A stretch of DNA of 45,559 nucleotides from a bacterium. GTDB taxonomy: Bacteria; Latescibacterota; Latescibacteria; Latescibacterales; Latescibacteraceae. Below the pieces are notes generated by a model, which did not search any database, was not told the origin of the DNA, and worked only from the letters and a program-made list of their open reading frames with translations. The stretch covers positions 1 to 45,559 of the forward strand of contig JAJFUH010000176.1 in the NCBI GenBank assembly GCA_021372535.1, written 5' to 3'. Position 1 is the stretch's first letter. Each line of letters opens with the position of its first letter. Shown here in pieces: positions 3,990 to 25,686 of the stretch. A program made the position numbers and the translations under genes.

Positions 3990-5138
3990 ATGAAAAAAAC
4001 AGTTCTTGCTCTAACGCCCGTTATTCTTTTTTACGCGATGTTGTGTTGTGGCCGGAATAGTTATGCAATTAACGAGACTGTAAGCGGCCATGAAATACGG
4101 GCTTATTGGTATAACGTTCCGCAGGATTCAGTAAAGATTGAGGTAATGAATCAAGTTATACAGTTCCAGTCATCACTGCAAGTTTACGGTAAAACTCCGG
4201 ATGATTCATTTCAGGTACAGGTCGAAGTTTATTCGAAAAGCGGTGAAAAGGTATATGTAAACACCTTTGAAATAAAAAAAGGACAAAAACAGGAGTCATT
4301 TTCGATTCAATTTAATGGAGATTGTTTCTCGCTCGAATGCCCTGTTCAGTATTTAGCGGAAAATCCGGACAGGATCATTGTAACTGTCAAATCATCGAAT
4401 GAAGAGATTACAAAGGAAATAAAATGCCGTTATCACCGTCTATACGGCCATGTAAGCGATTTTAACGGCAATCCGTATGAAGGTATTGTATCGATCAGCC
4501 CGGAAGCGTTTTTATCAGGAACGAGCATACGATGCGATTCAATGGGCAATTATGATATCGAGGTACCGGAACGAACATATAATTCTGTCATTTGTTTTGC
4601 CGAGAGCTATGCAATAAGTACGCTGGAGGTCTGGGCATGGCATATCATTATCGATTCCGATCAGCGGCTCGATTTCACTGTTGGAACCGGAGAGGTTTAT
4701 AATTTGAATGTCTGGCCGAACAATGGCGGCTCCAATACTTATTTAATATCTTTCAGACCGATGGTGCTTCCCTTTACCAAAAACAACACTATGCAAGAAT
4801 TACTGGCAAATATCAAAAAATACCCTGTCACAATTAATAACAATGTATTCCAGGCCGAAGACGAGGCATTTGAGCTTGAACCCGATGATATAACTGTATG
4901 GATTAACGACACAGAAGCACAAATAATTTCATTACAAAAATATTATGAAACGGGAAAGAAGAAGGCACAGACCTCTTACATTGTCCAGGTCAGCAGGGAT
5001 GGATTTAGCCGTGAGGGAAAACAAACCGTTAAGCTTGAGTTTAAAACAGAACTTGAAAAAAACGGTGAAAAAGTGCGACGATACAGTATGGGATATTACC
5101 AGTTTAATCTCAATTTTACCGGGCTTTCTTACTTTTAG
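3990..5138 (+). CDS. Secreted beta-rich protein of unknown function
   Basis: 382 residues. The N-terminal signal peptide (MKKTVLALTPVILFYAMLCC) is probably cleaved after SYA around residue 26. The rest is strand-rich and soluble. A segment around residues 150-225 (YGHVSDFNGNPYEGIVSISP, then SMGNYDIEVP) resembles a carboxypeptidase-regulatory-like beta-sandwich; the remainder is unrecognised. The start is firm: AAGGAGG lies 7 nt upstream. It is the second cargo gene between tRNA-Ala and the partial tRNA copy and is followed by a REP-like palindrome. No neighbour indicates a pathway. Confidence 0.75.
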   Translation: MKKTVLALTPVILFYAMLCCGRNSYAINETVSGHEIRAYWYNVPQDSVKIEVMNQVIQFQSSLQVYGKTPDDSFQVQVEVYSKSGEKVYVNTFEIKKGQKQESFSIQFNGDCFSLECPVQYLAENPDRIIVTVKSSNEEITKEIKCRYHRLYGHVSDFNGNPYEGIVSISPEAFLSGTSIRCDSMGNYDIEVPERTYNSVICFAESYAISTLEVWAWHIIIDSDQRLDFTVGTGEVYNLNVWPNNGGSNTYLISFRPMVLPFTKNNTMQELLANIKKYPVTINNNVFQAEDEAFELEPDDITVWINDTEAQIISLQKYYETGKKKAQTSYIVQVSRDGFSREGKQTVKLEFKTELEKNGEKVRRYSMGYYQFNLNFTGLSYF

Positions 5139-5290: not shown

Positions 5291-5328
5291 AAAAAAGACT
5301 TAACCACTTTAGGTTAAGTCTTTTTTTT
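5291..5328. terminator. Terminator (copy 3 of 3), shared by convergent genes
   Basis: Stem AAAAAAGACTTAACC (5291-5305), loop ACTTTA, complementary arm and T tract. It faces the 3' end of the first micropeptide gene (minus strand, 5345-5449) and can serve both directions. Confidence 0.8.
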
Positions 5329-5344: not shown

Positions 5345-5449
5345 TCAGGCGACTGTGGTGAGTAATGTCCCGACCGATGTGACAACCATCAGATAGATGA
5401 CTCCGAGCCAGACTAATCCTGCGGTAAGTATAAAGGCTTTTGTTTTCAT
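5345..5449 (-). CDS. 34-residue hydrophobic membrane peptide, unit A (candidate type I toxin-like)
   Basis: Starts MKTKAF and ends SVGTLLTTVA. The two lysines are followed by an uninterrupted hydrophobic segment (about residues 6-30) long enough for one membrane span, with no charged residue after Lys4. ATG at 5447-5449, GAGG 8 nt upstream, TGA at 5345-5347. Variant features are Phe6, Leu8 and Leu15. Across the four copies ten codons vary, and six of those differ only synonymously, which supports translation under selection. Short, single-span, tandemly repeated and each with its own promoter and terminator is the layout of type I toxins (Ldr, Ibs), but no antisense RNA is proven. An accessory subunit of a transporter is the alternative. 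Confidence 0.7.
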   Translation of the reverse strand: MKTKAFILTAGLVWLGVIYLMVVTSVGTLLTTVA

Positions 5450-5498
5450 GGCTGGTCCCTCTTCTCTATCAAATGGTATTGCATTCTTTCTTCTTTCT

Positions 5499-5527
5499 AT
5501 TATATGAGACGTATTCTTGGGCGGAAA
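5499..5527 (-). promoter_or_regulatory. Promoter of micropeptide unit A
   Basis: Read on the minus strand: TTTCCG (5522-5527), 17-bp spacer ending CGTCTCA, then a perfect TATAAT (5499-5504). The same arrangement and spacing occur in all four units. Confidence 0.5.
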
Positions 5528-5571
5528 GGTTTAAAATATTTGTGTTCTGGTTCACTGGTCCCGAATGGATA

Positions 5572-5602
5572 AAAAAAGCGCCCGAATGAGGGGCGCTTTT
5601 TT
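5572..5602. terminator. Terminator downstream of micropeptide unit B
   Basis: GCGCCC (5578-5583), 7-nt loop, GGGCGC (5591-5596), flanked by A and T tracts. Separates units A and B. Confidence 0.85.
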
Positions 5603-5620
5603 CTCCGGCTGGCGTTCGAC

Positions 5621-5725
5621 TCAGGCGACTGTGGTGAGCAGTGTTCCGACCGATGTGACAACCATCAGATAGATGACCCCGAACCAGACTAAGCCTGCGG
5701 TGATTATTGCGGCTTTCGTTTTCAT
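5621..5725 (-). CDS. 34-residue hydrophobic membrane peptide, unit B
   Basis: Same length and frame as unit A. Starts MKTKAAIITAG and has Phe15; the C-terminal half is identical to the other units. The predicted protein is identical to that of unit D, and the two genes differ only at three third-codon positions (codons 6, 11 and 32), all synonymous. GAGGAAACCACG precedes the ATG (5723-5725) on the minus strand. Own promoter and terminator, so monocistronic. Function unknown. Confidence 0.7.
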   Translation of the reverse strand: MKTKAAIITAGLVWFGVIYLMVVTSVGTLLTTVA

Positions 5726-5776
5726 CGTGGTTTCCTCTGTATTGTTATTGTTTTTATATTCTTTTTTCTTCTTTCT

Positions 5777-5805
5777 GTAATATGAGACGGATTCCGGGCC
5801 GGAAA
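5777..5805 (-). promoter_or_regulatory. Promoter of micropeptide unit B
   Basis: Minus strand: TTTCCG (5800-5805), 17 bp, TATTAC (5777-5782), with the shared CGTCTCA just above the -10 box. Confidence 0.45.
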
Positions 5806-5847
5806 AATTTCAAAAATATTCCCCGTTCATTTATCTCATATGGCTCA

Positions 5848-5878
5848 AAAAAAAGCGCCCGATTGAGGGGCGCTTTTT
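5848..5878. terminator. Terminator downstream of micropeptide unit C
   Basis: GCGCCC (5855-5860), loop GATTGAG, GGGCGC (5868-5873), flanked by A and T tracts. Confidence 0.85.
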
Positions 5879-5896
5879 CTCCGGTTGGTGTCCTGC

Positions 5897-6001
5897 TCAG
5901 GCGACAGTGGTGAGCAGTGTCCCGACCGATGTGACAACCATCAGATAGATGACACCGAGCCAGACTAATCCTGCGGTGATTATAAAGGCTTTTGTTCTCA
6001 T
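5897..6001 (-). CDS. 34-residue hydrophobic membrane peptide, unit C
   Basis: Same peptide family; starts MRTKAF (Lys2 to Arg, charge kept) with Ile8 and Leu15, so it groups with unit A. GAGAGGTACCAGCC precedes the ATG (5999-6001). Differences from unit A are conservative or synonymous. Own promoter and terminator. A longer reading frame on the same strand across this place (5754-6023) is out of frame and lacks a ribosome site. Confidence 0.7.
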   Translation of the reverse strand: MRTKAFIITAGLVWLGVIYLMVVTSVGTLLTTVA

Positions 6002-6049
6002 GGCTGGTACCTCTCTCTATCAAAAGGTCTTATATTCTTTCTTCTTTCT

Positions 6050-6078
6050 GTTATATGAGACGGATTCCCGGACGAAAA
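6050..6078 (-). promoter_or_regulatory. Promoter of micropeptide unit C
   Basis: Minus strand: TTTTCG (6073-6078), 17 bp, TATAAC (6050-6055), with CGTCTCA adjoining the -10 box. Confidence 0.45.
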
Positions 6079-6124
6079 AGTTTAAAAACATTTTGCGTTC
6101 AGGTTCACTTATCACGGATGGAAT

Positions 6125-6157
6125 AAAAAAAGCGCCCGAATGAGGGGCGCTTTTTTT
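6125..6157. terminator. Terminator downstream of micropeptide unit D
   Basis: GCGCCC (6132-6137), loop GAATGAG, GGGCGC (6145-6150), then seven T residues on the plus strand and A residues on the other side. Confidence 0.85.
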
Positions 6158-6175
6158 ATCCGGCTGGCGTTCGAC

Positions 6176-6280
6176 TCAGGCGACGGTGGTGAGCAGTGTT
6201 CCGACCGATGTGACAACCATCAGATAGATGACCCCGAACCAGACTAACCCTGCGGTGATTATGGCGGCTTTCGTTTTCAT
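6176..6280 (-). CDS. 34-residue hydrophobic membrane peptide, unit D
   Basis: First unit of the array in the direction of transcription. Protein identical to unit B (MKTKAAIITAG start, Phe15, SVGTLLTTVA end), with only synonymous changes between the two genes. GAGGAAACCATC precedes the ATG (6278-6280). The promoter lies between this gene and the divergently transcribed symporter at 6543. Confidence 0.7.
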   Translation of the reverse strand: MKTKAAIITAGLVWFGVIYLMVVTSVGTLLTTVA

Positions 6281-6331
6281 GATGGTTTCCTCTTTATAGT
6301 TATTGTTTTTTATATTCTCTTTCTTCTTTCT

Positions 6332-6360
6332 GTTATATGAGACGGATACACGCCCGGAAA
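6332..6360 (-). promoter_or_regulatory. Promoter of micropeptide unit D
   Basis: Minus strand: TTTCCG (6355-6360), 17 bp, TATAAC (6332-6337). Transcription would begin near 6325, about 45 nt above the ATG. Confidence 0.45.
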
Positions 6361-6460
6361 AATTTCAAAAAAGTGAAAAATTCCGCATGACACCACTATT
6401 CGGCAGTATCTCAGAATACAAAATATTCATCATTTATGTCGAACAGGCGATTTGTTGAAC

Positions 6461-6542: not shown

Positions 6543-8144
6543 ATGGTTCTTTCGCCTGTTGACTGGATTACCATTATTGCATATTTCACAGTCGTTTTTG
6601 CAGTGGGATTCCATTTCTCGCGAAAAGAGCGTGATTCGCAGCAGTATTTTCTCGCGGGCCGTAATGTGGGATGGTTTGCAGTCGGCGCATCGATCTTTGC
6701 CACCAACATCGGAAGCGAGCACTTCATCGGCCTTGCCGGTTCGGGCGCGGACAGCGGTCTTGCGGTGGGGGCATATGAAATATCAGCGGTTTACTGTATT
6801 CTCATCCTCGGCTGGGTCTTTCTCCCCTACTATCTTAAAAGCAAAGTATTTACCATGCCGGAATACCTGGAACGGAGGTTTAATCCCGGATGCAGGTGGT
6901 TCCTGACAGGTATTTCACTGTTTGCCTATGTTTTTACCAAGATTTCGGTTTCGCTTTTTGCCGGTGCAATTCTTATCGAAGCGGTCGTGGGCTGGCCGCC
7001 GCTTGTTTCCGCAATACTCCTCGTCGTTGCAACCGGAGTATATACCATCGCAGGCGGGTTGTCGGCGGTGATCTATACCGATATGATCCAGGCCTTCATT
7101 CTCATCGGCGGCTCGATTGTGCTCACACTCATCGGTCTGGACAAGGTTGGCGGTTTCACCGGCTTACGGGCGGGTCTGCCCCCGGATTTTTTCCATATGA
7201 TCAAACCCATGAACCATATGGTGTACCCGTGGACCGGGACAATAATCGGTATAATCATTCTGGGAATATGGTACTGGTGTACGGATCAGGTCATCGTACA
7301 ACGGGCTCTCGGGGCGAAAAACCTGACACACTCACGGGGAAGCGCCCTTTTCGCGGCATTTCTCAAGATATTTCCCCTGTTTATTCTGGTACTTCCCGGT
7401 CTCATCGCCAGGGTTTTATGGACCGGGGAAATCGCCGCCAATCCCGACAGAGCGTATCCTCTTATTGTTACACGCCTGATGCCTTCGGGCTTGACCGGGC
7501 TCATGATTGCCGCATTGCTTGCAGCGCTCATGTCATCGCTCAGCGCGGTGTTTAATTCCTGCTCGACACTCATAACCATGGATGTTTACCGTAAAATGAA
7601 ACCCGAAGCCTCCGAAAAGAAACTCGTATCCGTGGGGCGATGGGTCACTGCGGGCATAGTACTCATTTCCATACTCTGGATTCCGATGATACGGTTTTTA
7701 TCGAACCAGATATACCAGTATCTCCAGAGTATCCAGGCCTATATCGGCGCGCCGATCACCGCCGTGTTCCTTACCGGAATCATATGGAAGCGCGCCACTG
7801 GAAAGGCCGCAATCATCACTCTGGTGACCGGAGGTTTCCTTGGCCTCCTCCGTTTTCTCACTGATATCCTGTCGAAGATAGGATATACCGATCTCGGTCC
7901 GTTAAACATGCTGACCGGATACGCATTTCTGAATTTCAGCGTTCTTTTGTTTATATTCTGTACAGGATGCATGATAGTGCTCTCGCTCATGACACGCGAA
8001 CCCAGACCGGCCGGGCTCGAAGACCTCACCTTCTCCCATAAAACCATGTCGCTCGGTGTCAGCAAAGTGTGGGTCTGGGTCCATATCATGCTTTCAATTC
8101 TTGTGGGAGGTATTGCGTTAACGATCTGGACGCATTTTGCCTGA
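6543..8144 (+). CDS. SGLT-like sodium/solute symporter (SSS family)
   Basis: 533 residues with about 13-14 hydrophobic helices. The second-helix region reads ASIFATNIGSEHFIGLAGSGADSG, close to the sodium/sugar (SGLT) branch of the SSS family, with NIGSEHFIGLAG as the diagnostic stretch; YTIAGGLSAVIYTDMIQAF and GIWYWCTDQVIVQRAL are further family blocks. Inner-membrane Na+-coupled uptake, most likely of a sugar or sugar acid; the substrate cannot be read from sequence. Monocistronic and divergent from the micropeptide array. Confidence 0.92.
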   Translation: MVLSPVDWITIIAYFTVVFAVGFHFSRKERDSQQYFLAGRNVGWFAVGASIFATNIGSEHFIGLAGSGADSGLAVGAYEISAVYCILILGWVFLPYYLKSKVFTMPEYLERRFNPGCRWFLTGISLFAYVFTKISVSLFAGAILIEAVVGWPPLVSAILLVVATGVYTIAGGLSAVIYTDMIQAFILIGGSIVLTLIGLDKVGGFTGLRAGLPPDFFHMIKPMNHMVYPWTGTIIGIIILGIWYWCTDQVIVQRALGAKNLTHSRGSALFAAFLKIFPLFILVLPGLIARVLWTGEIAANPDRAYPLIVTRLMPSGLTGLMIAALLAALMSSLSAVFNSCSTLITMDVYRKMKPEASEKKLVSVGRWVTAGIVLISILWIPMIRFLSNQIYQYLQSIQAYIGAPITAVFLTGIIWKRATGKAAIITLVTGGFLGLLRFLTDILSKIGYTDLGPLNMLTGYAFLNFSVLLFIFCTGCMIVLSLMTREPRPAGLEDLTFSHKTMSLGVSKVWVWVHIMLSILVGGIALTIWTHFA

Positions 8145-19180: not shown

Positions 19181-19541
19181 GGGGGCGACCTGGTTTCGAC
19201 GGGGACAGGTGGCGCCTGGACTGCATGCCGTGGTTCCGACCTGGCCACGTAAAAAGGTCGGATTATAATGTAACTGCAAACGATTATTCGTATGCGATGG
19301 CTGCCTAACTAAAGGCGGCCCGTTCCACTCCGCTGTGCCCGTTCAACGGGGATGGGGCGACGATCTGACGGGATAGCCGAGGGTGCTGCCTTCGAACCGA
19401 GGCGAAATTAAAGGAGGCTTGTGAAGTGAGAGACTTGTCGGCGGATCGCTCAATTCACGAGATCAAACCCACCGACTGAGCATGGAGATGTCCTCGTGGC
19501 ACGGTTTTCGGACGCGGGTTCGATTCCCGCCGCCTCCACCA
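19181..19541 (+). ncRNA. ssrA: Transfer-messenger RNA (tmRNA)
   Basis: Rescues stalled ribosomes with SmpB. The 5' end GGGGGCGACCTGGTTTCGAC and 3' end GGTTCGATTCCCGCC..ACCA form the tRNA-like domain. The acceptor GGGGGCG pairs with CGCCTCC and includes G3:U70 for alanylation. The resume codon is GCA at 19276; the tag frame runs to TAA at 19306-19308 and encodes ANDYSYAMAA, close to but distinct from the common ANDENYALAA. CCA is encoded. Its 3' end has been the target of repeated insertion: copies of the last 25-27 bases lie at 25949, 28304 and 30548. Confidence 0.96.
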
Positions 19542-19796: not shown

Positions 19797-21086
19797 TTAA
19801 TGAAATTTACCTTTACATAATTTACTGATTCGCTTTGCTATTGATATAATGGTAAGAATAGGTGGATTACCTGTAGAATGAGGGAGCAGTGTAGAATCAG
19901 CTATATAGAGATTTTCAGGCAATCTGTCATGATGAAACGTATCTGCTTCCTTTATTGTCAGCGGCAACATACCCCCGGGATGTCCGGCATTTATTGTTCC
20001 AAGAAAAATATTATTCTTTTCCCCTCCAAGCCGACTGAGAATCTCCGTACATATTTCAACCCCTTCGTTCAGCCTTTTCTTGTCCTGATCAGTGAGGATT
20101 TTATTAAGCTTCTTATTTGAAATACTTCCTTTATTAGAGTCGGCTAATTTTATCATGATTCCCACAATATCTTTTGCAGGATATTTCCATGCCTTATTGA
20201 AAAAGTAACTCAGATAATCAAAATAAGGAGATAAGATATAATGTTCCTTTTGAACAATGAATGGCATAGGTATTTCTTTGCATTGATGACTATTTTTATA
20301 TTCCATTGCCACACATAAAACCGGGTCCACAAATAAATTCTTTTCACAATCAATTCCTGAATTTTGCAGTATTACCGGTGTTGCCAGTCCTCCGGCAGCC
20401 AGTATGACAAGATCTGCCGGATAAAATCGATGAGACAGTCCTTTCTTTGCCAGTACACCGGTTACTCTTCCATCCTTTATAACTACTTTTTTTACCTTGC
20501 ATTTCATTATGAGGTTCGCTCCGGCATTAAGAGCAATCTCTAAAAATCTTCGGCTGTCCCATTTTGCACCATATGAACAACCAAAAACACACCTGCCGCA
20601 ATTGGTACAACGATTGAAATTTCCCATTTTGGGTGTCGACTGAGGATTCAAGTTAATTTCACGGGATATTTCAAAAAGACGGGTTGTAACTCTGCTCCAT
20701 CGGTTTTGATGGTCAGTTGTAATGGGTATTTCTTGATAAATTTCTTCAAATTCATCATTCAAATCGATACCCAATGATTTTAAATCCTTGTCAATGCGGA
20801 GGGCATTTCCAGTAGAAAGGGCCGTAGTTCCTCCCAATCCAATCCCATTTACTAGAATCATTCCTTCTTCGGTTTTTCTGATTTTCATATATGAGAAAAT
20901 AAGTTGAATCTCTCTTTCACTAAAGAGCAATCCTGTTTTTTTTACCTTTTCAAGTAACGGCATCTTCAGCTTGAGGGGATAAAATTCTCTTCCTGCTTCC
21001 AAGACGGTGACATCAAATGTGCCTTGTAGTTCTTTAGCAACGGTGGCACCTCCCGCCCCACTACCAACCACTATCGCTTTTTTCAT
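19797..21086 (-). CDS. GMC-family FAD oxidoreductase (alcohol oxidase-like)
   Basis: 429 residues. FAD-binding VVGSGAGGA at residues 6-14; the substrate-side motif GIGLGGTTALSTGNAL; and C-terminal HSTGNPPILTIISIAKR containing the GMC catalytic His/Asn region, preceded by GHPGGMLP. A cysteine group CTNCGRCVFGC (about residues 159-169) is found in long-chain alcohol oxidase-like GMC proteins and could bind iron-sulphur or structural metal. The ATG at 21084-21086 overlaps the upstream gene's TGA (ATGA) and is preferred over an in-frame ATG 27 nt higher. Last gene of a four-gene operon with a fatty acyl reductase, so a long-chain alcohol or aldehyde substrate is plausible. Confidence 0.85.
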   Translation of the reverse strand: MKKAIVVGSGAGGATVAKELQGTFDVTVLEAGREFYPLKLKMPLLEKVKKTGLLFSEREIQLIFSYMKIRKTEEGMILVNGIGLGGTTALSTGNALRIDKDLKSLGIDLNDEFEEIYQEIPITTDHQNRWSRVTTRLFEISREINLNPQSTPKMGNFNRCTNCGRCVFGCSYGAKWDSRRFLEIALNAGANLIMKCKVKKVVIKDGRVTGVLAKKGLSHRFYPADLVILAAGGLATPVILQNSGIDCEKNLFVDPVLCVAMEYKNSHQCKEIPMPFIVQKEHYILSPYFDYLSYFFNKAWKYPAKDIVGIMIKLADSNKGSISNKKLNKILTDQDKKRLNEGVEICTEILSRLGGEKNNIFLGTINAGHPGGMLPLTIKEADTFHHDRLPENLYIADSTLLPHSTGNPPILTIISIAKRISKLCKGKFH

Positions 21087-21631
21087 ATTGGCAAATCCTG
21101 TAAAACCAAACATGCTTTACAACAATCTTTCCCTTCAGTAATCCTTCCGGAAAATATGAGTTTTCCACCTCCCGACAAACCTGCAATAACTCCCTCATCA
21201 AGAGATGAAATGACCTGACAAACCTGACTTGAATAAAACCTGCTGAAGAAGCACCGTTTGATAGTAACATCCCTTTGAACAGTCATATGAAATTCAATCT
21301 TAAGAGCACGATAAAGTATCCGACTCATGGTCATCACTTCTTCAATCGTGGTAACATGGAATCTTTTTCTTATTTGTTCTCCAAGACGAAAGGCGTTTTG
21401 ATACAGTCGTTTTTTAATTATTTGCATGTCATTACCCTGTTGAATCGATCTTTCAACCACTTCTTTTGTAAACAATGCATACATCTCTAAACACTCGTCA
21501 AATGATAGTCCATCAACTTGAGGTATATTACATTCGAACGCCAGAGCAGTACAATTGAACAATTCCTCGATTTTTCTTTTCTTTATAAATGTCGGTATGT
21601 AAATTTGCATAATTCTCAAGAGTAAATTCAT
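21083..21631 (-). CDS. Small cysteine-containing protein of the lipid operon
   Basis: 182 residues, helical N-terminal two-thirds, then a C-terminal block CFFSRFYSSQVCQVISSLDE, GLSGGGKLIFSGRITEG and CCKACL. The pattern of an FxRFYS..VC motif followed by paired cysteines recalls L-2-amino-thiazoline-4-carboxylate hydrolase-like proteins, but that assignment is tentative. A ribosome site (AAGGGATGAG) overlaps the end of the preceding gene, 6 nt away. It is coupled to the GMC gene by a 4-nt overlap, so the two products probably act together. Confidence 0.65.
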   Translation of the reverse strand: MNLLLRIMQIYIPTFIKKRKIEELFNCTALAFECNIPQVDGLSFDECLEMYALFTKEVVERSIQQGNDMQIIKKRLYQNAFRLGEQIRKRFHVTTIEEVMTMSRILYRALKIEFHMTVQRDVTIKRCFFSRFYSSQVCQVISSLDEGVIAGLSGGGKLIFSGRITEGKDCCKACLVLQDLPI

Positions 21632-21637
21632 CGAGTC

Positions 21638-24445
21638 TCATCCCTTCTCAGTGCGGCCGTAGTGCAGTACATACTCAGGGAGTTCGCGCTCGTCGTAAAG
21701 AGCATCAATCACGTCTTTAAACCGCCCGGTGAGCGCTTTCCTCTTAATCTTAAGGTTTGCAGTAAGATCCCCGCCTTCGATAGAAAGATCATCGTTAAGA
21801 ATGGCCCAGCGTTTTACTTGTTCAGGATGGGACAGACGTGTATTAACTTCCTTTATGGCATTATCGGTTGCCTCTGGAGAAAACTCGGTACAGAGATTTT
21901 GCTTTACCCAAAGCAGAGATACACAATAAGGCCTGCTGTCTCCAATCAGCATGACCACGGAGATATTCGTGATTTCTTGTAGCATCATCTCGATTTTCAC
22001 CGGATATATGTTCTTACCGTAAGAAGTCACGATAAGCTCGCTCTTGCGGCCAGAGATAACAAGGCTGCCTTCGCCAGTGAGATATCCATAATCCCCCGTT
22101 TGAAGCCAGCCTTCCCTGAAAGGCTGCTCTACTCCTCCACCATAATAACCGGAAGTCACCTGTGGACCTCGAACCAGTATCTCACCATCATCAGCTATAT
22201 GCACAAGAGTGTTGGGGAGAGGCTCGCCTACTGTCCCCAGCCTGTTAGCACCAAAACGGTTCAATGTGACCAATGGAGCCTCGGTCAGTCCATAGGCATT
22301 GTGGATTTCAATGCCGAGTTCCCGGAATGATTTAAAAAGATTCTCACTTGCAGGAGCTGAACCCATAATAAGCTGGGTGCACCTTTCAAGGCCTATTTTT
22401 CTCAGAATTACCCACCGCAAAATATAGCGAAAAATTTTTTTCATAAGACCTTTATGTAATCTTAAATATTGACACCCAATCCCACTATTTAAAATTTTCT
22501 CCCATACCTTCTCATAAAATCTGGGTACTGAAAAAAATATTGTAGGCTTCACACGCGGTAGTGCATCCTGAAGATCATGAAAATCTTCAAGAAAATAAAT
22601 ATTCAATGGTGCAGGAATATAGTATGGTGAATACATTGTGAGGATACCCTCTACAACGTGGTTCATAGGTAAAAACGAGAGGTACGAAATTTTTTCATTC
22701 CTTGTCTTCCACGGTATCAGTGAGGCGAGAGACTCAGCCATCCACCGGAGATTATCGTGTCTGAAAATCGCGCCCTTTGGCCTGCCCGTTGTCCCCGAAG
22801 TATACCGCAGAGTTGCAGTATTATATAAAGCAATGGGAGCGTCGAGTCGCATCTCGCCACTGTTTTCCCCTTTGGCTAAAAAGTCGTTCCAGGAAATGAC
22901 TTTATCATGAAGCTCTTGAGGGAGAGAGTCTTGACAAAAGGAAATCACCGGAATTGTTACGGTTAATTCCTCAACTTTCTCTATCAGTTTATATGATCCT
23001 ACAAACAAGAGTCTTGAGTTACTATTCTTGATGATCTCGTCAATATCTGCCAGAGGGCATGTATAGTAAAGGGGAACGCTCACCGCACCGATGAGACCGA
23101 TAGCCACATCTATGGTAAGAAAGCGAGTGCTGTTGAGTCCCACTATGGCAATACGGTCCTCGGGGCAGACATTCATGGAATACAGCGCTTTTACTGCTGC
23201 CAGTATGTTCTTACGAACTTCTGCAGTATCTCTGGTCACGATTTTACCTTTCACCACATCGTGGTAAGTCACAGGACGGCTTTTACTCTTCTGGCGGAAA
23301 ATGATCTGCTCGTGAACACTCCGTTCAGTCCTGTGCATAAAGCCCGTGTAAACCGAAAACTCCAACAGGTTCGGCATGATGGCGCGCCATTCCATTTCAT
23401 AACAACCCAGTAACCGGTCAGTGTTGTCTCTCATGTATCGCCTGCGCTCATTGAAGTAAGGAACCAGGGGTATTAAAGCATCAAGTATACCTTTTTGTTT
23501 GATGCGGAAAACTTTTTGAATCCTGAACCAGCGCAGAAGCAAGGAATCAGGAATTGGCAAGAACAGAGGACGTGAAAGAGTAATACCGAGACGCTCCCGT
23601 GTCCATTCTCTGACATAACCTATTAATTCACCTGCAGCAGGCAGTGATTCAAAAGGTGCTGTCAGGTGGAAATTCATACCTTCTGCCCGGGGATCGAAGG
23701 TAAGACGGGCAACCGCATCCGTAACATAGTCGACCGGGATAAGGTTGATACGTTGTGATGAACTCAAAGGAAGAACCTTCAGCCGACCGGTCATGTATAA
23801 TCGTACCGGGAAATACAGGGTATTAAAGGTTTTAATGTAACCTGTGTGAGAATCACCGACTATCATCCCGGGGCGAAAAACCGAGATGGGAAACTCGACT
23901 TTAGCCGCTTGTACCAAGAGTTCACTCTCGTACTTACTAACCTCGTATGGACTTAAAAAACCGTATTCATCGGTAAGAGTGTTCTCGTGTATTTCACCTC
24001 TTCGTCCTCCGGCAACATAGGCAGTAGATACGTGAGAGAATCGTATTAAACCGTGATCAAGGTGGACTTTCCGAGCCAGTTCGAGCACATTTTTTGTACC
24101 CTGAACATTGGTCATCCTGAGTTCGTCAAGGGAGGCGCAGATGCTCACATTTGCAGCCATATGGATAATGTGAGTGAGCCTGGATACTAACTCATCATAG
24201 ATAACATCCTCAAGACCTAATCCGGATTCGGTGATATTGCCCTTAACCACCTGAATCCTGTCTTCAATGGCGCCTATAAGTTCAGGAAAGTCCCACCATC
24301 CCCGAGATAGTCTGTATAGTGCCTCCTGCATGTTCTTAGCCCTTACGAGTACGATAATATCGAGGTCGGTATTTTTCAGAATCCATTGTGTTATATACGT
24401 GCCCAAGAAACCTGTCGCCCCCGTCAGGAGTATCGTACCGGTCAT
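21638..24445 (-). CDS. Fusion: fatty acyl reductase (NAD-binding_4) and acyl-CoA synthetase
   Basis: 935 residues in two catalytic parts. Residues 1 to about 270: extended SDR/thioester reductase with LTGATGFLGTY at 7-17, HMAANVSI, and YxxxK (PYEVSKYE, Tyr near 165), as in fatty acyl-CoA reductases. A linker of about 100 residues follows. Residues about 390-900: AMP-forming synthetase with YTSGTTGRPKGA (about 548), the A5-like NAYGLTEAP, GWLQTGDYGYL and the K-containing C-terminal ISGRKSELIVTSYGKNIYP. Expected to activate a long-chain acid and reduce an acyl thioester in one polypeptide. ATGA overlap with the upstream pyruvyltransferase-like gene fixes the start. No carrier domain is visible. 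Confidence 0.88.
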   Translation of the reverse strand: MTGTILLTGATGFLGTYITQWILKNTDLDIIVLVRAKNMQEALYRLSRGWWDFPELIGAIEDRIQVVKGNITESGLGLEDVIYDELVSRLTHIIHMAANVSICASLDELRMTNVQGTKNVLELARKVHLDHGLIRFSHVSTAYVAGGRRGEIHENTLTDEYGFLSPYEVSKYESELLVQAAKVEFPISVFRPGMIVGDSHTGYIKTFNTLYFPVRLYMTGRLKVLPLSSSQRINLIPVDYVTDAVARLTFDPRAEGMNFHLTAPFESLPAAGELIGYVREWTRERLGITLSRPLFLPIPDSLLLRWFRIQKVFRIKQKGILDALIPLVPYFNERRRYMRDNTDRLLGCYEMEWRAIMPNLLEFSVYTGFMHRTERSVHEQIIFRQKSKSRPVTYHDVVKGKIVTRDTAEVRKNILAAVKALYSMNVCPEDRIAIVGLNSTRFLTIDVAIGLIGAVSVPLYYTCPLADIDEIIKNSNSRLLFVGSYKLIEKVEELTVTIPVISFCQDSLPQELHDKVISWNDFLAKGENSGEMRLDAPIALYNTATLRYTSGTTGRPKGAIFRHDNLRWMAESLASLIPWKTRNEKISYLSFLPMNHVVEGILTMYSPYYIPAPLNIYFLEDFHDLQDALPRVKPTIFFSVPRFYEKVWEKILNSGIGCQYLRLHKGLMKKIFRYILRWVILRKIGLERCTQLIMGSAPASENLFKSFRELGIEIHNAYGLTEAPLVTLNRFGANRLGTVGEPLPNTLVHIADDGEILVRGPQVTSGYYGGGVEQPFREGWLQTGDYGYLTGEGSLVISGRKSELIVTSYGKNIYPVKIEMMLQEITNISVVMLIGDSRPYCVSLLWVKQNLCTEFSPEATDNAIKEVNTRLSHPEQVKRWAILNDDLSIEGGDLTANLKIKRKALTGRFKDVIDALYDERELPEYVLHYGRTEKG

Positions 24446-25686
24446 CCCTTAACCCCCCAACCTTGTTTCTCCACGAAAACTCTGAGTAATTCACGGTTAC
24501 GTGTTGATTTTGCTATAAAGTCTTCAAATCCTCTTACAAGAATCTCCCTGATGAGCTTTGTATCCGAAAACAATCTGTCAACACGATTACTTAAAACTTC
24601 CGATAAATCTGGCGTTGAGTATTCGATAAAAAACTCCTGTAAACCCAGTTCACGGTAAAAGTCCTCAAGCCTACTGTCATGCCCCACAGCTACCTGAGGT
24701 ACTTGCGCATCAAGAGAAAGAACACTTGCATGGAATCTTGAGGTTACCAGTAATTCAAGACTTCTTAAAAGAACAGTCATCTGAGAGGCGTTATAGTGCT
24801 TTGAAGAAAATATTCTCGCACGATCGGAATTGTCCATATAATGCATAATCATCCGAGCGAGAGGTTCGTCAAGCTCTTCCATGCAAATCAAGGCTACAGA
24901 CTTGTCATACTTTTTGATAATACGGTCAGCCTCGGCTGCGAAAACATTTGCCAGTGTTTCAGTTGAATGGTGTCGTTCGGGTGAATGGGAAAAGTAGTAC
25001 GGCCATTTGTAGCAATATTGCTTGCGGCCCCAAAGACGTATTACTACCGGCCACAAATAGAAATCCACAGCTGCAATCCCTACAATTCCGGTTGAATTAT
25101 CCGGCCACACATCTTGCAGGAATGTTTTGTCGGCAGGGTTTGTAAGCAACGTATAAGCGGTGTCGGTCGTTACTTCAATTGGTGCGCTTACCCCCCAGGA
25201 CTTGAGACGGGCAGCAGCGGAACCGGTTCTGGTAATAATGAGGTCCGTCTTGCTCGCCACCCGTTTTACAAGTCTTTGATTTATGGAAGATAAATCACCT
25301 GCATCGACAGCGTACGCAAGGCAGGGTTTATCCATAGCATAGGCGCAACGAGAAGCCCACAAAAAAAACCAGAGAAGGGCGGAAGTCCACGTGTCCATGT
25401 AGGTACTGCCTTCAACCAAAAGGATCAGGTCATGTTCACTCACGAGCCGTTGGAGTGATCGAAAATATATTGAGGGAATGGGAGCGATCCGAAGATTTGA
25501 CTCCTCCTTGAGGTACCGTCGGAGGTTGAACTCATTCAGAGTCGGGACGGTAATGAAAACTTCAGGCCCCAGTATCGTTTTTATATCCTCTATTGTAGCC
25601 AGGAGTCTTGCCTCGGCGCCCGTGTTGTTAGCTCCGTTATAACCTACAAGGAGAACTTTCGGAATTATATCTGCATGTTTTTTCAT
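24442..25686 (-). CDS. Polysaccharide pyruvyl transferase family protein
   Basis: 414 residues. The N-terminus VLLVGYNGANNTGAEARLLATI and C-terminus LLVTSRFHASVLSLDAQVPQVAVGHDSRLEDF are the signature ends of the PS_pyruv_trans (CsaB-like) family; LVEGSTYMDTWTSALLWFF lies between. Members transfer pyruvyl groups from PEP to sugars, or act as related transferases. First gene of the operon; its stop overlaps the next start by 4 nt. The ribosome site is poor, so the start could be slightly off. In this operon the acceptor may be a lipid-linked sugar rather than an exopolysaccharide, which is inference. Confidence 0.85.
   Translation of the reverse strand: MKKHADIIPKVLLVGYNGANNTGAEARLLATIEDIKTILGPEVFITVPTLNEFNLRRYLKEESNLRIAPIPSIYFRSLQRLVSEHDLILLVEGSTYMDTWTSALLWFFLWASRCAYAMDKPCLAYAVDAGDLSSINQRLVKRVASKTDLIITRTGSAAARLKSWGVSAPIEVTTDTAYTLLTNPADKTFLQDVWPDNSTGIVGIAAVDFYLWPVVIRLWGRKQYCYKWPYYFSHSPERHHSTETLANVFAAEADRIIKKYDKSVALICMEELDEPLARMIMHYMDNSDRARIFSSKHYNASQMTVLLRSLELLVTSRFHASVLSLDAQVPQVAVGHDSRLEDFYRELGLQEFFIEYSTPDLSEVLSNRVDRLFSDTKLIREILVRGFEDFIAKSTRNRELLRVFVEKQGWGVKG

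Follow-up and report, generated by a model that had tools for sequence, protein, structure and literature searches.

What does a bacterium of the phylum Latescibacterota gain from four tandem genes for a 34-residue membrane peptide, and what controls them? Single-span peptides of fewer than 50 aa are common, and their organisation and control outside E. coli are little known. The window, the whole 45,559-nt stretch of DNA analysed here, belongs to a 5.35-Mb genome (G000). We compared it within a set of 64 genomes of the phylum, in which G000 to G003 make up one family; G001 is of the same genus as G000 and G002 of the same family.

The preliminary description saw four head-to-tail units of ~276 bp on the minus strand between 5345 and 6360, each with its own promoter, ribosome site, 34-codon ORF and terminator. 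The direct repeats are spaced 276, 276 and 279 bp apart, giving minus-strand units of 276-279 bp, and all of these parts were found in all four units, with a GAGG/AGGG-type Shine-Dalgarno sequence and a hairpin-plus-T terminator in each (Table 1). The units are thus as described, while the true extent is wider, from about 5291 (the last terminator) to 6366 (the first -35). Upstream DNA is most alike between units 1 and 3 and between units 2 and 4 (identity 0.80, against 0.64-0.70 for other pairings), which suggests that the array arose from a duplicated dimer. The genes had been thought invisible to standard gene callers, but this is not strictly so: at 105 nt, each exceeds the usual lower gene limit of Prodigal, 90 nt.

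Table 1. Parts of the four-unit array, in window coordinates.
Feature	Position	Strand	Details
Unit 1 ECF-type promoter	6321..6366	-	GAAATTTTTCCGGGCGTGTATCCGTCTCATATAACAG; model R1 E=1.9e-9
Unit 1 ORF, 34 aa	6176..6280	-	MKTKAAIITAGLVWFGVIYLMVVTSVGTLLTTVA; purifying selection; single helix 2-33, pLDDT 93
Unit 1 terminator	6123..6159	-	GCGCCC...GGGCGC hairpin, T-run
Unit 2 ECF-type promoter	6039..6084	-	TAAACTTTTTCGTCCGGGAATCCGTCTCATATAACAG; R1 E=9.8e-9
Unit 2 ORF, 34 aa	5897..6001	-	MRTKAFIITAGLVWLGVIYLMVVTSVGTLLTTVA; ORF list
Unit 2 terminator	5846..5879	-	repeat family D2
Unit 3 ECF-type promoter	5766..5811	-	R1 E=1.4e-9
Unit 3 ORF, 34 aa	5621..5725	-	protein identical to that of unit 1; ORF list
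Unit 3 terminator	5569..5602	-	repeat family D2, I6
Unit 4 ECF-type promoter	5488..5533	-	R1 E=9.6e-8
Unit 4 ORF, 34 aa	5345..5449	-	MKTKAFILTAGLVWLGVIYLMVVTSVGTLLTTVA; ORF list
Unit 4 terminator	5291..5326	-	hairpin unlike those of units 1-3

An attenuator or leader peptide was ruled out because unit 4 ends in its own terminator and the gene at 3990-5138 (plus strand) is convergent, leaving nothing to lead downstream of the array. A small subunit of the Na+/solute symporter at 6543-8144 was rejected as well, the symporter gene being divergent from the array. The window also carries a tRNA (2594-2666), a tmRNA gene (19181-19541, plus strand; Rfam 205 bits) and, at 19797-25686 on the minus strand, a cluster named from our reading of the translations: a GMC-type oxidoreductase, a 182-aa protein, a 935-aa fused SDR/AMP-ligase-like protein and a polysaccharide-pyruvyl-transferase-like protein.

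The array ORFs are under purifying selection. Substitutions between units 1 and 3 fall 0/0/3 by codon position (dN 0, dS 0.117), and dN/dS is well below 1 inside the array and ~0.1-0.2 against the closest copies in G001 and G002. AlphaFold models the peptide as one helix spanning nearly its whole length (Table 1). Divergent copies keep the frame and an architecture of Lys/Arg-bearing N-terminus, hydrophobic span and uncharged C-terminus; helical periodicity of the conservation was not significant (p = 0.15). The peptide thus has the traits of small regulatory membrane proteins, being shorter than 50 aa, with one TM helix, and conserved as a protein, and no sequence relationship to the AcrZ/MgrB/YohP class was found.

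A protein search of G000 recovered two further copies, on C50 (65% identity) and C107; the latter (L107, contig 51697) keeps its promoter intact but is interrupted in frame by a TGA at codon 27 and thus encodes a decayed or shortened peptide. By profile (E<=0.01), relatives occur in G001 and G002 besides G000, and in no other of the 64 phylum genomes. For two of them, the public entries are MAGs assigned to Candidatus Latescibacterota. The two observations that would have told against a peptide family, a lack of homologous ORFs in relatives and frame-breaking change, are therefore both contradicted: the ORF is present in G001 and G002, and the frame is kept with mostly third-position substitutions. 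Models from Pfam, NCBIfam, PADLOC and PHROGs gave no convincing match to the array peptide. The sole weak Pfam match, to a class IId bacteriocin, scored 14.1 bits where the cut-off is 23.6 and was rejected; so was a phage or plasmid origin, as neither IMG/VR viral contigs nor PLSDB plasmids yielded a relative and no PHROGs or PADLOC family matched. In G001, one promoter is followed by two different single-span peptides of 42 and 33 aa (L115, C451:40201-40500).

Upstream of each array ORF lies a bipartite element of fixed spacing, [G/T]AAA[T/C]-N17-CGTCTNATA (also given with CGTCTCATA). It is ECF-type and not sigma-70-like, which corrects the earlier reading of the promoter. Scanned across G000, a 19-nt pattern derived solely from the array promoters found an acyltransferase-type gene and two dispersed single-span peptides of 33-34 aa that the protein search had not found (C155, MKKGFVILNYGLIYLAIAYGCVIIRSIAIYATAV; C63, MKSILLITVTLAWFGVGAAYLFAKAVEFVTFIA). 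Counts of the motif rest on genome searches that score the best candidates only: exact matches to KAAAY-N17-CGTCTNATA number six in G000, all before peptides; four in G001, before three peptides and one HlyD/MacA gene; seven in G002, before four peptides and an anti-sigma factor, with two unassigned sites; and none in G003. A fixed-spacing bipartite promoter common to dispersed genes is a hallmark of an ECF sigma regulon. We scored core positions in the weight matrix, as a matrix weighting all 31 positions missed the sites on C164 discussed below.

We then described the promoter with a sequence-only model of 46 nt, R1, built from 18 sites. At E<=0.01 it returned 23 sites, all in G000-G003 (4 of the 64 phylum genomes) and none in the other 60, although the 18 training sites came from interpreted loci and their E-values are partly by construction. 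Eighteen of the 23 precede hydrophobic ORFs of 31-42 aa, one with a premature stop (seven intact plus C107 in G000, four in G001, six in G002). By comparison, 0.14% of random window positions have such an ORF 20-150 nt downstream, a figure that reflects how rare these ORFs are: an ATG ORF of 28-45 codons that combines a ribosome site with a strong TM stretch occurs at a single place in the window outside the array. The other five precede an acyltransferase gene, two genes for DUF6249-like membrane proteins, a HlyD/MacA gene and an anti-sigma factor gene. The best sites thus lie mostly before peptides of one architecture. Independent finds are the 19-nt pattern matches and the peptide loci outside R1 training: C210 in G000, C693, C186 and C782 in G002 and, more weakly, C230 in G001 (34 aa, E 0.022) and C50 in G003 (37 aa, E 0.13). 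Further weak matches precede secreted or envelope proteins. An R1-type site (E=0.16) stands before a secreted bactofilin-like-repeat protein with several TM helices in G000 (L104, C234:34841, minus strand), and in G003 the gene of a comparable protein is divergent from a DUF6249 gene (L126).

Family peptides also occur under a second control route. In G001 (L119, C361) and G002 (L120, C74), they follow a TGGCAT-N5-TTGC element that reads as a sigma-54 promoter, behind genes for a histidine kinase and an NtrC-type response regulator and ahead of HlyD and ABC ATPase genes. The G001 operon additionally has OEP and MacB genes, and G002 has a second peptide ORF and a truncated third. The presence of the peptides in operons of the MacAB-TolC type ties the family to envelope efflux.

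Which sigma factor reads the array promoters? G000 has 11 Sigma70_r2 genes, and it seems reasonably likely from the arrangement of sites that the regulator is the ECF sigma encoded on C164, whose closest NCBIfam model is SigW, below cut-off. Its gene is followed by that of a 297-aa membrane anti-sigma factor with two zf-HC2 stretches, and divergent from it stand three tandem genes for DUF6249-like small membrane proteins, two with promoter-type sites (L103:2593-4291). The first has an R1-type site (E=6e-4), and a weak site precedes the sigma gene itself (score 12.2, against 25-31 for most peptides). In G002, the anti-sigma gene is directly preceded by a site, placed between it and the sigma gene, that carries the GAAATTAT -35 variant seen in the peptide promoters of that genome; in G003, both the sigma gene and the divergent DUF6249-like gene have a site before them. 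A site suited to autoregulation is thus found at the sigma/anti-sigma locus in G002, in G003 and weakly in G000, and the G001 contig shows none in the 134 bases at its end. A DUF6249-like gene also follows a peptide in G001 C223.

The anti-sigma family (E<=1e-20) occurs in exactly G000-G003 and nowhere else among the phylum genomes, with an ECF sigma beside it that is intact in three; these four genomes are one family, so the co-occurrence with R1 sites is confounded with descent. In G003, the sigma ortholog is truncated to ~63 residues, a deletion joining region 2 to the start of the anti-sigma (L074:475-960, C245); this may reflect either a natural knock-out or a fault in the assembly. G003 keeps its weak peptide and DUF6249 sites despite the truncation.

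A second ECF gene, on C159 of G000, makes the assignment uncertain: an R1-like site (TGAACTT...CGTCATATGTAACAG, E=7.7) lies upstream of it, and the third DUF6249-like gene on C164 has a similar site. The same peptides could then answer to C159 or another ECF sigma, and the C164 pair would simply be another member of the regulon. We consider this unlikely, since in G002 and G003 no such site precedes the C159 orthologs, whereas the site recurs at the C164-type locus in G000, G002 and G003, and the G002 anti-sigma site shares its -35 variant with the peptide promoters there. A literature search turned up nothing helpful on Latescibacterota sigma factors or on ECF-driven peptide sets.

The preliminary description proposed a new family, either type I toxin-like or of small regulatory membrane peptides. 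Ldr/Ibs-type toxins are hydrophobic peptides of ~19-35 aa, and the array, with its repeated intergenic units, each with promoter and terminator around a small single-helix peptide, resembles the Ldr/Rdl and Ibs/Sib loci. The peptide would then depolarise the membrane and an antisense RNA would silence it. Because the inter-unit hairpins are bidirectional in sequence, they could also end antisense transcripts, and DinQ, regulated by the SOS response, is a precedent for a stress-regulated type I toxin (PMC8309996). We nevertheless find a toxin-antitoxin array improbable. No sigma-70-like antisense promoter was found in the array and none is placed alike across the peptide loci; a 9/12 antisense match does occur at 5 of 11 other peptide loci, at differing positions. 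No Rfam antitoxin reached the gathering threshold, and no known toxin family in Pfam, NCBIfam, PADLOC or PHROGs matched convincingly. The first ~43 nt of the mRNA are unpaired (z = -0.77), leaving the 5' region open and the ribosome site accessible. In zorO, by contrast, the ribosome site is sequestered (PMC8309996); this trait is not universal in the class. The C-terminus of most type I toxins is charged and cytosolic (PMC8309996), unlike the array peptide with its Lys-rich N-terminus and uncharged C-terminus. Finally, the sense promoter is shared with envelope genes in what appears to be a stress-type regulon, and relatives lie inside an efflux operon. The regulatory-peptide half of the proposal is thus supported and the toxin half is not.

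A reading in which the units encode small RNAs and the ORFs arise by chance is very improbable. Short, terminated transcripts of ~210 nt from a stress sigma promoter would recall the sigma-E-dependent sRNAs, but change is biased to third positions with low dN/dS, divergent copies preserve the frame, the N-terminal Lys and the hydrophobic span, and, the terminator aside, the RNA fold is unremarkable (z = -0.77).

We propose that the array is quite probably a dosage block: four copies of a single peptide gene from a regulon whose single-span inner-membrane peptides, ~31-42 aa long, act as sigma-controlled effectors of envelope stress. The promoter shared with dispersed peptides and envelope genes makes the array look like part of a stress response rather than a toxin-antitoxin system. 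The sequence itself shows the units, their selection, the common promoter, what the regulon contains and the co-occurrence with the anti-sigma factor; we infer which sigma factor acts, what stress induces it, how the peptide lies in the membrane and what it binds or does there. In our model, the SigW-like sigma of C164 is most likely held by the anti-sigma with two zf-HC2 stretches; envelope stress would release it to read promoters of the form GAAAT(TTTT)-N-CGTCTCATA. Each unit would yield a short monocistronic mRNA, starting near CATATAACAG and ending at its own hairpin. Translation would give one long helix whose Lys-rich N-terminus stays in the cytoplasm while the uncharged C-terminus lies outside (N-in/C-out). 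Most likely, the peptides bind envelope machines, such as efflux or transport complexes or stress sensors, and tune them.

By analogy, the peptides most likely act like AcrZ, MgrB or YohP in kind. AcrZ is linked to an efflux pump; here, two relatives of the array peptide sit in MacAB-TolC type operons. Small membrane proteins of this sort in E. coli are shorter than ~50 aa, consist of one helix without an enzymatic domain and are made under stress (PMC12719787, PMC11539335). The array peptide shares the size, the single helix and the lack of an enzymatic domain with YohP, AcrZ and MgrB, and differs in that a single ECF-type promoter is common to numerous diverged peptides built alike, a tandem array among them. 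The regulon resembles those of SigW and RpoE in that an ECF sigma adjoins a membrane zf-HC2 anti-sigma, a site precedes the sigma or anti-sigma gene and envelope genes are targets. Its -35 and -10 also recall the sigma-W/sigma-M sites, TGAAAC-N16-CGTA/CGTC. It differs from those regulons in its best-scoring targets, mostly single-span peptides of 31-42 aa, and in an anti-sigma with two zinc-finger stretches that is confined here to one Latescibacterota family.

The promoter, and not the protein sequence, finds these peptides, and the 46-nt model catches those too diverged for the protein searches used. This suggests a general route to hidden small-protein regulons in uncultured phyla. With a named sigma/anti-sigma pair and candidate target promoters in hand, the model is directly testable in vitro. 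It is tempting to speculate, though tentatively, that one ECF sigma controls a varied set of single-helix peptides, every one adapted to its own inner-membrane machine, with one class attached to MacAB-TolC pumps. If so, the response to envelope stress would mainly produce membrane 'adaptor helices', and not chaperones and proteases.
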